A stretch of DNA of 40,764 nt, from positions 1-40,764 of the forward strand of contig JAIPAP010000025.1 of the NCBI GenBank assembly GCA_021740045.1. Direction: 5' to 3'. Shown here one piece after another: positions 37,928-40,764 of the stretch. The translations under genes and the position numbers were made by a program. This DNA is from Bacteroidales bacterium. Its GTDB lineage: Bacteria > Bacteroidota > Bacteroidia > Bacteroidales > JAIPAP01. The first letter of the stretch is position 1, and each line of letters opens with the position of its first letter. A model generated the notes under the pieces. The model was not told the DNA's origin. It saw only the letters and a program-made list of their open reading frames with translations, and searched no databases.

Positions 37928-39841
37928 ATGCGTATGAAAAGAGTACTACTATTAGCAATGATCATTGGCTTCTCAGCAAGCCTTCTCGCTCAGGAATTTG
38001 CACCTCCGGAAAAGGAGTTGCGCAACATAGCAATTCCGGACCTAAGAGCAATGGATGATCTGCCAAACCTGGAAAAAGGGGTTAATCCTTATGTAAAAAG
38101 TGGGGTTACACCTAGTGAAACCGATGTAGGTGAAACCATATACGATCTTCAATCAAACGCCTGTACACAGAACCGTTTTGTTATGCATGCCGACGGAACC
38201 ATGGGCGCCACCTGGACGTATGGTATGGAAGACGGTAGTGGCTTTGCCGATCGTGGAACCGGTTACAACTTTTATGACGGTTCCGAGTGGGGACCCTACC
38301 CTAACAAACGAATTGAAAGCGATCGTACGGGATGGCCCTCCTATGATGCTTGGGGCGAAAACGGTGAAATAACCTGTGCCCATATTAGTGGTGGCGAAGA
38401 GGTTGGTTTGCTTCTTAATATGCGTGAACAAAAAGGCACCGGCGAATGGACCGAGGTGCTCTTGCAAGGCCCCGAGGGCCATGAAGGTGTTCTTTGGCCC
38501 CGTATGGTAACCTCAGGACCCAACAATGAAACCATCCATGTTATTTACCTGACCCGCCCTGTTGCCAATGGCGGCGCCATTTATGAGGGACAGGACGGCG
38601 CATTGCTGTACGCCCGTTCATCCGACGGCGGACAAACCTGGGATATTAAAGATGAGATCATCAACGGACTGGGTGAAGATTATTACACTGCCTTTAGCGG
38701 TGACGGCTATTGCTGGATCGATCCACAGGGTGATAACCTTGCCTTCCTTGTTGGCGACAATTGGGTGGATTTTGTTTTGATGACATCCGACGACGGTGGA
38801 GACACCTGGGAAAAAACTGTTATTTGGGAGCATCCCTATCCGATGTTTGACCCGAACAACCCCACAGAAACAGACACCTTCTATTGTGTTGACGGAGCTT
38901 TCCACGGCGCTTTTGATAACAATGGTAAGATTCATGTTACCTTTGGTATTAATCGTGCAATGTCAGACGGTTCAGCCTTATCATGGTTCCCCTTTGTTGA
39001 AGGCCTCGGATACTGGAATGAAGACCGTGAAACATTCTCCGATAATGTTGATGCGCTTAGTCCCTATATTGGAAGCGACCCCGATTCCGAGCTGGAAGAT
39101 CTATACAGCTTGATAGCCTGGGTTCCCGACCTGAACGGAAACGGTACATGGACACAAGACCTTGTGCAACCAGGGGCCATTGAGTCCATAGGCCTGTATT
39201 ATCTGAGTCCCTCGAGTATGCCGCAAATGACAATAGATGCCAATAACGACATCTATATCAGTTTCTCGGCCATTTGTGAAGAACGAGGTACACAAAGCCA
39301 GAATTACAGGCAATTATTTGCCACCCGTGGTACCGATGACGGTATGACATGGCTCGAGGAATTTGTATGGCTTACCGAAAGCCCGGTACACACTTTTGAC
39401 GAATGTGTATTTGCCTCGCATGCGCCCATGATGAATGATAACTTCCACCTGCTCTATCAGCGTGACGAAGAGCCCGGGCTGGCCATTCGCGGTGACGAAG
39501 ACCCATTCACCAATAATACGCTTACTTACATGAGCGTTCCCAAATCGGATGTTCAGGGTGTTGAGGAGATCAATCCTGCAACCTCATTCAAAGTATATCA
39601 AAACTACCCCAACCCCTTCAATGCTACTTCAACCATTGAGGTAAGCCTGAAGCAGTCGGCCGATGTGGAGGTTTCGATATACAACAACATGGGACAACTG
39701 GTAAGCCAGATCGACAAAGGTGAACTGCGCTCCGGATTGCATAAAATCCAGGTAAGCGCCAGCGATCTTAGCGCCGGTTCCTATTTCTACACCGTTAAGG
39801 TGGATGACTCACAAGTTACAAAGCAAATGATCGTACGATAG
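37928..39841 (+). CDS. Secreted Asp-box (BNR-like) protein with T9SS sorting domain
   Basis: A 637-residue exported protein. The signal peptide (1-22) ends in LLAQ. The body is a beta-propeller-like region with three Asp-box motifs of SxDxGxTW type: SSDGGQTW (231-238), SDDGGDTW (287-294) and TDDGMTW (469-475). The last 85 residues (from YQNYPNPFN at 557 to MIVR) are a type A T9SS C-terminal sorting domain, so it is exported across the outer membrane and released or anchored. Sialidase catalytic residues cannot be identified, so enzymatic function is not claimed. It is monocistronic, with a strong promoter upstream and a terminator downstream. ATG codons at 37928 and 37934 are both possible. 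Confidence 0.88.
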   Translation: MRMKRVLLLAMIIGFSASLLAQEFAPPEKELRNIAIPDLRAMDDLPNLEKGVNPYVKSGVTPSETDVGETIYDLQSNACTQNRFVMHADGTMGATWTYGMEDGSGFADRGTGYNFYDGSEWGPYPNKRIESDRTGWPSYDAWGENGEITCAHISGGEEVGLLLNMREQKGTGEWTEVLLQGPEGHEGVLWPRMVTSGPNNETIHVIYLTRPVANGGAIYEGQDGALLYARSSDGGQTWDIKDEIINGLGEDYYTAFSGDGYCWIDPQGDNLAFLVGDNWVDFVLMTSDDGGDTWEKTVIWEHPYPMFDPNNPTETDTFYCVDGAFHGAFDNNGKIHVTFGINRAMSDGSALSWFPFVEGLGYWNEDRETFSDNVDALSPYIGSDPDSELEDLYSLIAWVPDLNGNGTWTQDLVQPGAIESIGLYYLSPSSMPQMTIDANNDIYISFSAICEERGTQSQNYRQLFATRGTDDGMTWLEEFVWLTESPVHTFDECVFASHAPMMNDNFHLLYQRDEEPGLAIRGDEDPFTNNTLTYMSVPKSDVQGVEEINPATSFKVYQNYPNPFNATSTIEVSLKQSADVEVSIYNNMGQLVSQIDKGELRSGLHKIQVSASDLSAGSYFYTVKVDDSQVTKQMIVR

Positions 39842-39904: not shown

Positions 39905-40055
39905 ATTGCCCGGAAGAAAGAAAAGCTACACTTAGAAAAACGCCTGCAAGTTTCACCCAGTCCTCAAATTCCATTTTATAAGTTAATCAAATACATTGAT
40001 TTTTAATCATTGGTGTCCGGAAAAAGCATGGAGATTTCTGATGGTAAAGCTGTTC

Positions 40056-40271
40056 GAATCCCGGAGGGATTCAACGGTATTAACCACAGGCGATAGCCTG
40101 TGGCTTTACAAGCGGCTGGAATAGCAACTCCGAAGGAGTTAAACTATTTTAAAAAATATCCGAAATTATCAAGACACTACATAGTTTTACCCCTTCGGGG
40201 TAAAGGCATTTACACGGCTCATTACCCCAGGCTTCCGCCTGGGGTTAATATTGTTTATCGCCTTCGGCGAT
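40056..40271. repeat. Cluster of six short hairpins
   Basis: Within 216 bp are six perfect inverted repeats: GAATCCC/GGGATTC (40056-40072), CCACAGGC/GCCTGTGG (40084-40103), AACTCC/GGAGTT (40126-40140), TTTACCCC/GGGGTAAA (40186-40204), ACCCCAGGC/GCCTGGGGT (40224-40245) and ATCGCC/GGCGAT (40257-40271). Five loops are GGA, GAA, TTC or TTCC, i.e. one apex type in both orientations; the second loop is GATA. No open reading frame covers it. It resembles the palindromic elements found repeatedly in Bacteroidota intergenic DNA, perhaps a non-autonomous element or a structured RNA. Confidence 0.85.
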
Positions 40272-40411
40272 GGTGGTAAGTGGAAAAGTCATTACTTCTT
40301 TGCCATTAATGATAATCGGCATTCGGAATAACGTCCGGTAAGTTTGTGTTACTTCATTGCAATTTCTAACGCAAACGATCACACTTTACACTGCGGGGGC
40401 AATTATTTGCC
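40272..40411. other. Intergenic stretch with no recognised feature
   Basis: Between the hairpin cluster and the first 37-bp repeat I see no open reading frame of useful length, no strong hairpin and no promoter match. Confidence 0.6.
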
Positions 40412-40473
40412 GCAGCGCTAATTGTCATTTTAGCTATGTGGGCTTTAATAAGTCTAGGGATTACCAATGACAA
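40412..40473. repeat. 37-bp direct repeat, copy 1, with short inverted ends
   Basis: Bases 40412-40448 are identical to 40653-40689. Inside, TTGTCATT (40422-40429) pairs with AATGACAA (40466-40473), defining a 52-bp unit with 8-bp inverted ends. The second copy has the same ends. Confidence 0.85.
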
Positions 40474-40512
40474 GTTTTTGTTTTGTGTTGATTGTGAGGT
40501 AAATATGAATTG

Positions 40513-40532
40513 CCGTCGGCTTTAGCCGACGG
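40513..40532. repeat. Hairpin with TTTA apex
   Basis: CCGTCGGC (40513-40520) pairs with GCCGACGG (40525-40532) around TTTA. The apex GCTTTAGC is the reverse complement of the apex GCTAAAGC in the two neighbouring hairpins. Confidence 0.8.
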
Positions 40533-40579
40533 ATTACAAAATGAGTAACCCTTTTTCCGGGTTTTAACCCAGCACCCAT

Positions 40580-40604
40580 CCTATGGGCTAAAGCCCAGCA
40601 TAGG
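40580..40604. repeat. Hairpin with TAAA apex and bulge
   Basis: CCTAT (40580-40584) pairs with ATAGG (40600-40604), and GGGC pairs with GCCC around TAAA (40589-40592), with a small internal bulge on the right arm. Confidence 0.7.
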
Positions 40605-40620
40605 TTGTAGACCCCTAAAC

Positions 40621-40640
40621 CCGTTCGCTAAAGCGAACGG
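40621..40640. repeat. Hairpin with TAAA apex
   Basis: CCGTTCGC (40621-40628) pairs with GCGAACGG (40633-40640) around TAAA. It is the same design as the hairpin at 40513-40532, with the apex reversed. Confidence 0.8.
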
Positions 40641-40652
40641 CAATATATAGTT

Positions 40653-40715
40653 GCAGCGCTAATTGTCATTTTAGCTATGTGGGCTTTAAAAAAGACTGAA
40701 AATTCGAAATGACAA
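40653..40715. repeat. 37-bp direct repeat, copy 2, with short inverted ends
   Basis: Bases 40653-40689 repeat 40412-40448 exactly. TTGTCATT (40663-40670) and AATGACAA (40708-40715) again form the inverted ends, of a 53-bp unit. The sequence between the arms differs after the shared 37 bp. Confidence 0.85.
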
Positions 40716-40764
40716 AATAGTTGTTGTTGGGGGGGTGGAGGCGGAGGGAAAAACGCAAAGCGTT

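Follow-up and report, generated by a model that had tools for sequence, protein, structure and literature searches.

A facing pair of three-hairpin modules in a Bacteroidales genome resembles the ends of elements encoding subclass 1.2 IS200/IS605-like transposases

We analyzed a contig of 40,764 nucleotides from a Bacteroidales bacterium (GenBank assembly GCA_021740045.1, contig JAIPAP010000025.1; hereafter the window), in which six DNA hairpins are crowded into positions 40056-40271. These hairpins are two inverted copies of a single three-hairpin module of approximately 98 nt, an arrangement that went unnoticed in a first-pass annotation made from the letters of the sequence. We consider it likely that the stretch is a non-autonomous, REPIN/PATE-like doublet of the end of an element encoding an IS200/IS605-like TnpA of subclass 1.2, and that it carries no transposase gene of its own. 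The doublet is read as a mobile-element end because the same pair of facing modules encloses a transposase gene of one clade, termed MSTYTQ, in many Bacteroidota.

Architecture of the hairpin doublet

The first-pass annotation had described six hairpins with different stems in non-coding DNA, five of them with apices of one type in both orientations. All of these features are confirmed. The six non-overlapping, perfect stem-loops have stems of 6-9 bp and loops of 3-4 nt; five apices are of the GGA/GAA or TTC/TTCC type, and the remaining one (40084-40103) is GATA. No entry of at least 80 amino acids in the window's list of open reading frames (ORFs) overlaps the region, which sits 3´ of a 637-amino-acid ORF (37928-39841) in a stretch free of long ORFs. 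When the 216 bp were shuffled 5000 times with dinucleotide composition preserved, 4376 shuffles contained no such hairpin and none contained more than three. Similarly, among 751 segments of 216 bp taken every 54 bp across the whole window, the top count was five, reached in one segment. Folding of single strands with RNA parameters is better than that of every shuffle on both strands (z of -5.6 and -7.3), and folding with DNA parameters yields z values of -5.3 to -6.2 per module and strand.

The inverted relationship is seen when positions 40061-40267 are aligned to their own reverse complement, with 64% identity. Each module is ordered as hairpin A, an 11-nt linker, hairpin B, a spacer and hairpin C, such that the doublet reads A-B-C and then C´-B´-A´. 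Read along the module strand, the left half (plus strand) has the loops GGA, GATA and GAA, and the right half (minus strand) has, from A´ to C´, GAA, GGAA and GAA. There is no transposase gene inside the doublet: the modules are separated by 27 bp, without an ORF of at least 80 amino acids. The parts of the window copy are listed below, with bit scores from covariance model R1 (next section).

40053-40150, plus strand: left A-B-C module; R1, 98.3 bits (sequence in the R1 training set)
40056-40072, plus strand: hairpin A; 7-bp stem GAATCCC, loop GGA
40073-40083, plus strand: conserved linker 3´ of hairpin A, AACGGTATTAA; putative cleavage region
40084-40103, plus strand: hairpin B; 8-bp stem CCACAGGC, loop GATA
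40126-40140, plus strand: hairpin C; 6-bp stem AACTCC, loop GAA
40151-40177, no strand: 27-bp spacer between modules; the position where linked loci elsewhere carry the tnpA gene
40178-40275, minus strand: right A-B-C module, inverted; R1, 94.6 bits (sequence in the R1 training set)
40186-40204, minus strand: hairpin C´; 8 bp, loop TTC on plus and GAA on minus
40224-40245, minus strand: hairpin B´; 9 bp, loop TTCC on plus and GGAA on minus
40245-40255, minus strand: right-module linker, AACAATATTAA on the minus strand
40257-40271, minus strand: hairpin A´; 6 bp, loop TTC on plus and GAA on minus

Modules flank transposase genes of one clade

Two covariance models of the module were used. Model R1 was built from 16 modules, 11 from the window's genome and five from three other genomes, and model R2 was trained on the 11 own-genome modules only. 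Both are biased towards GNA loops on the module strand. One of the R1 training modules (L038) lies beside a MSTYTQ gene that apparently recurs as L191 among the 80 loci described below, an overlap that R2 removes.

Matches to R1 adjoin certain Y1 transposase genes of the order, which were found independently by a protein query. Of 20 such loci that were retrieved, four had been chosen for their R1 matches; seven of the other 16 have an R1 match at E≤0.01. For the MSTYTQ loci first examined (L155-L163 and L172), a match is present at nine of ten, and at four of the five that were not chosen via R1.

A larger test used nine MSTYTQ proteins as queries and took the best 80 of 262 confirmed stretches from named genomes. 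All nine queries come from module-bearing loci, four having been chosen for that property (L156-L159), one via R1 (L155) and four on neither ground (L160, L161, L163 and L172); L162, the only examined MSTYTQ locus without a module, was excluded. The 80 loci span many groups of Bacteroidota (e.g. Prolixibacteraceae, Chitinophagaceae, Saprospiraceae, Pedobacter and Balneola), and include two from Cloacimonadota and one from Ignavibacteriales. R1 yields 243 matches on these loci, and a module lies within 150 bp of the gene in 79 of the 80. For this count, the end of a module is taken as its start plus 98; flanks of more than 150 bp are available on either side of the gene in 75 of the 80. Five of the loci (L180, L191, L205, L210 and L258) look to be among those in which modules had already been observed, and without them the count is 74 of 75.

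Modules are present on both sides of the gene in 53 loci, and in 48 of these they face inward (upstream on plus, downstream on minus), as they do in the window. The end of the left module commonly falls just ahead of the start codon, and the right module starts at about the stop codon. In the 150 bp next to the gene, match density is 6.9 per kb on the upstream side and 6.2 per kb on the downstream side, as compared with 0-0.27 per kb beyond 600 bp. Model R2 gives 216 matches on the same 80 loci (257,789 bases) versus 12 in 60 control loci with other Y1 genes (191,219 bases). As read by eye, 78 of the 80 loci have an R2 match (L221 and L239 do not), and the control matches are confined to six of the 60 loci.

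Stems vary by compensatory change

Two-sided changes are already present at 12 of the 22 base pairs in the 16 modules used to train R1. In an alignment of 71 modules from 38 sources (the window, the 29 best other-genome loci and eight transposase loci), such changes occur at all 22 pairs; 94.8% of cells are paired versus 70.9% in shuffles, and the covariation score is 0.639 versus 0.196 in shuffles and at most 0.10 when pairing partners are slid. A second alignment, comprising the best 150 of the 243 R1 matches at transposase loci, has two-sided changes at 21 of 22 pairs, with 96.1% of cells paired versus 74.4% in shuffles. Both alignments were fitted to the model structure, which favors pairing, and the slid and shuffled controls therefore outweigh the percentages. 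The compensatory changes for which the first-pass annotation had proposed a covariance-model search are thus present.

Among the 150 modules, the A-linker is 11 nt long in 143, with the consensus AAYNTGAATAR. Apices of GNA or GNNA type were counted in 108 of 139 A hairpins, 85 of 112 B hairpins and 78 of 119 C hairpins, counts that omit the hairpins whose limits could not be set (11 A, 38 B and 31 C). The most constant features of the module are its geometry, the GNA/GNNA type of most apices and the linker, whereas the stems vary by compensatory change. Constant apices and geometry together with variable stems are compatible with an enzyme that recognizes hairpins in single-stranded DNA by their apex and position.

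Copies in the genome and across the order

The window's genome assembly comprises 161 contigs and is 97% complete. A blastn search of it, which the first-pass annotation had suggested as a check on whether the region is unique, revealed multiple copies. The 20 matches listed comprise the window copy, four near-full copies with 89-93% identity over 199-249 of the 251 query bases, and a remainder of partial or weak matches, several of which are single A-B-C halves (L006, L007, L008 and L011). With R1, 22 module matches are found in this genome at E≤1. One copy (L014) breaks off within one base of the end of the A-linker (window position 40084), and other copies lose similarity shortly 3´ of hairpin C. 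Few as they are, such breaks may indicate a junction on the 3´ side of the hairpins. In another genome (G095), three copies have a common sharp left border; one is masked rightward, and the other two diverge within the A´ stem.

Six of the copies (L002, L003, L005, L008, L012 and L014) have in common a segment that lies about 150 bp to the left of hairpin A, in which a short conserved frame might be made out by eye on the other strand. A GGTGTCC motif upstream of several copies was considered and dropped, being found with only two of 221 modules.

A direct DNA search of the same order, with two candidates scored per genome, gave matches in eight of 393 genomes including the window's own, and those in the others are short. 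With R1, 73 of the 198 genomes searched from the order have modules at E≤0.01, again including the window's own; this search scored 20 candidates per genome under stricter filters, which makes its absences soft. At 15 of the 29 best other-genome loci (L127-L155, three of which are in the R1 training set), reading by eye finds a second R1 module no more than 300 bp away that faces the opposite way; both orders occur. At three further loci, L128, L136 and L155, a transposase gene is enclosed by facing modules. Other arrangements include direct repeats with a period of approximately 457 bp at L137 and overlapping arrays at L138.

The linked enzyme

The nine aligned MSTYTQ proteins that are linked to modules are 148 amino acids long. 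Residues H54 and H56 (HxH) and Y114, Q118, H121 and H122 (Y-x3-Q-x2-HH) are invariant in these nine and in 20 sequences. Two linked proteins score above the cut-off of the NCBIfam model for IS200/IS605-family transposases (NF033573), and the model for repetitive extragenic palindrome (REP)-associated tyrosine transposases (RAYTs; NF047646) gives the same two proteins 25.2 and 19.1 bits, far short of its cut-off of 80. The predicted structure of a MSTYTQ TnpA has a predicted local distance difference test score (pLDDT) of 91.7. Its best matches in the Protein Data Bank (PDB) are the ISDra2 and IS608 transposases (E of 2e-8 to 4e-8, template-modeling score of about 0.6), several of which were solved with hairpin ends bound; the solved RAYT structure 4er8 is a weaker match (9e-6). 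A sequence search of the PDB returned nothing at E≤0.001. By signature and fold similarity, the linked enzyme is predicted to be a small single-strand transposase (Y1/HUH) that belongs to subclass 1.2. The first-pass annotation had suggested a composite mobile element or a substrate of a REP-associated tyrosine transposase acting in trans. This suggestion came close to the evidence, although the enzyme scores as IS200/IS605-like rather than as a RAYT, and its clade was not found in the assembly.

Proposed mechanism

GNNA loops, like GNA loops, form stable DNA mini-hairpins. We propose that the GNA-loop hairpins would fold when their strand becomes single, for example as the template for lagging-strand synthesis. 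The transposase would then read the common apex and not the stem sequence. TnpA would cut near the conserved AATAA-type linker 3´ of the hairpin, on the strand that carries the GNA loops, and modules or doublets would be copied or moved in trans, possibly including the copies in the window's genome. The mini-hairpins formed by GNA loops are described as unusually stable (PMC6479982; this and the other papers are cited for parts of their text), and there is precedent for a role of the loop in two REP systems that tolerate no change at certain loop positions (PMC8266576).

A broader version of this proposal, which we hold somewhat less firmly but still favor, is that subclass 1.2 TnpA enzymes recognize a compound single-stranded DNA site consisting of three GNA-loop mini-hairpins in succession and a conserved 3´ linker. 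Recognition would depend on loop type and geometry while the stems drift freely. Inverted pairs would then be a family of self-standing elements throughout Bacteroidota, with an apex and a linker specific to each transposase clade.

Evidence against a MSTYTQ partner, and alternative explanations

Several results weigh against the assignment of the doublet to the MSTYTQ enzymes, or against recognition through the apex. No MSTYTQ gene was found in the window's assembly. Its four Y1_Tnp matches lie on contigs C14, C45, C51 and C155, and the C14 and C45 proteins are MSTYTQ relatives at 35-36% identity that belong to other clades. Contig C101 carries a 32-residue MSTYTQ-like fragment (47%) beside another type of hairpin. 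Two genomes of another family (G129 and G013) share the linker type of the window and were considered as holders of its partner; these genomes are 78-79% complete, no MSTYTQ gene was found in them, and there are only weak module matches near their other Y1 genes. To these must be added the minority of apices that are of neither GNA nor GNNA type, and the E. coli REP system, one of three studied, in which the loop sequence is reported to have no specific role (PMC8266576).

The distribution of modules among the 198 genomes bears on the same question. Modules are present in 54 of 77 genomes with a relative of the linked TnpA at E≤1e-30, versus 19 of 121 without (p = 1e-14). Of the 22 genomes matched at E≤1e-50, which have the MSTYTQ clade, 19 carry modules versus 54 of 176 others (p = 6e-7); this cut was placed at a gap in the list once the list had been seen. 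On the unfavorable side, three of the 22 have a MSTYTQ gene and, within the soft absences of the search, no R1 match, and modules are also carried by 35 of the 55 genomes in which only other clades occur, a proportion that differs weakly from 19 of 22 (p = 0.06). Thus, co-occurrence supports a tie to the subclass and does not single out the MSTYTQ clade. The tie to that clade is made because modules lie in the flanks of its genes, not because of co-occurrence.

The linker AACGGTATTAA of the window differs from the commonest linker form, and no transposase gene with exactly this linker adjoining it was found. At five loci (L055, L056, L058, L064 and L069), other genes for subclass 1.2-like TnpA proteins are flanked by GNA-like hairpin pairs with a linker of the type ATGTTTATAGAAA. 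Comparison of these sequences suggests that linker and transposase clade change together. This leaves three readings of the window doublet: it is an orphan or relic, its partner falls in an assembly gap (copies on contigs C77 and C78 are interrupted by contig ends), or another subclass 1.2 clade serves it. The transposases of L045 (G129:C113) and L046 (G000:C14) are identical over 159 amino acids in two genomes from different families of the order, which suggests recent transfer.

If the element is of the same kind but is served by one of the Y1 genes of its own genome, rather than by a MSTYTQ enzyme, then the four Y1_Tnp matches, the kinship of C14 and C45 to the MSTYTQ clade and the modules in genomes with only other clades would find a ready explanation. 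We regard this alternative as unlikely. The first-pass annotation had recommended a search for a Y1 (RAYT) gene, and although four Y1_Tnp matches are indeed present, each is surrounded by hairpins with apices of its own type: GGTGC-AGC-GCACC, AAAGCCC-TGC-GGGCTTT, CAAGGGGC-TACA-GCCCCTTG and CTCGTT-ACA-AACGAG (L021-L024). No R1 module adjoins the Y1 genes of C14, C51 or C155, and a single weak match of 26 bits lies beside that of C45. Moreover, the canonical REP foot GT[AG]G is found at one of 253 delimited hairpin feet (138 A and 115 C) in the 150-module alignment.

It is very unlikely that the hairpins constitute a structured regulatory RNA, with three or six hairpins, that has spread as paralogous small RNAs or leader elements. 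The stems do covary, and both strands fold well as RNA; however, the modules face each other in both orders, in many loci they directly border a transposase gene both upstream and downstream, and each strand of a doublet carries one module in each sense. Rfam searches gave no family at threshold in the stretches examined. The main lead, RT-7 (RF03028), is the only one of full model length over the region, and its 17.7 bits fall far below the gathering score of 116.8; the Rfam results for the other four near-full copies and for a related locus (L002-L005 and L010) do not include it. The structured RNA that the first-pass annotation had also entertained accordingly gains no positive support beyond folding.

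The least probable explanation, to which we give hardly any weight, is that of old, immobile repeats retained between genes as transcript ends or for the protection of mRNA ends, roles that have been proposed for REPs (PMC3733652): the position of the doublet 3´ of the 637-amino-acid ORF would suit it, but it leaves unexplained the side-by-side linkage to one transposase clade and the conserved linker. Such a role could nonetheless be a secondary function of the doublet.

Relation to known elements

Read as a non-autonomous relative of subclass 1.2 elements, the doublet compares with two types of elements that are already known. REPINs, or bacterial interspersed mosaic elements (BIMEs), are inverted REP doublets that are thought to be moved by RAYTs (PMC3116915). 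They resemble the present system in forming short inverted pairs in many copies, in having repeats beside the gene of a partner transposase, and in showing compensatory changes in their hairpins. Their inverted-doublet arrangement is found here in the window, in own-genome copies and in the 15 other-genome loci noted above. However, each unit has three hairpins here and a REP has one, there is conserved sequence 3´ of the hairpin, and the partner is IS200-like according to NCBIfam rather than a RAYT.

PATEs are non-autonomous relatives of IS605-type transposons in Haloquadratum, some of which formed by loss of the core (PMC3119063). As in PATEs, the palindromic ends of IS200/IS605 type are kept in the window while the transposase gene is absent, and these ends match those that flank IS200/IS605-type transposase genes elsewhere, as measured with both R1 (79 of 80 loci) and R2 (216 matches). 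In the parts of the account cited, PATEs are described as lacking terminal inverted repeats (PMC3119063), whereas the two halves of the window doublet are inverted copies at 64% identity.

Quentin et al. (2018; PMC6006769, in the portion cited) report that the TnpA proteins of subclass 1.2 are generally not accompanied by typical IS200 ends. The linked enzymes share with this subclass the Y---Q--HH signature and an origin mostly in Bacteroidota. In contrast to the published description, at 79 of the 80 loci from a single clade three-hairpin modules lie no more than 150 bp from the gene. The same paper describes subclass 2.6 TnpA-REP genes of Bacteroidetes with atypical repeated hairpins that also lack the GT[AG]G consensus, but these belong to a different transposase subclass from the enzyme linked here. 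In 30 loci fetched with an own-genome protein of RAYT type (NF047646 above cut-off), there are only one R1 match and one R2 match at E≤0.01, both at L093. A three-hairpin end without the GT[AG]G foot and tied to a subclass 1.2 TnpA was not found in the literature searched, which was largely open-access, was covered mostly as titles and the beginnings of abstracts, and excluded the supplementary files of PMC6006769. Doublets moved in trans and PATEs are thus known, and what appears to be new here is the three-hairpin end and its tie to this subclass.

If the reading is correct, it gives a transposase subclass that was described without a DNA partner a concrete and testable one, and it accounts for a hairpin motif of 73 of 198 genomes of the order. 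It would also offer a system from nature in which single-stranded hairpins may be recognized by a protein through their apex and geometry, with stems that are free to vary.

A second hairpin cluster in the window

Another cluster of hairpins, with TTTA/TAAA apices, lies at positions 40513-40650 of the window (CCGTCGGC-TTTA-GCCGACGG, TGGGC-TAAA-GCCCA and GTTCGC-TAAA-GCGAAC). This cluster is not matched by R1 at E≤0.01. It is flanked by imperfect direct repeats, near 40398-40482 and 40639-40728, that are 77% identical.
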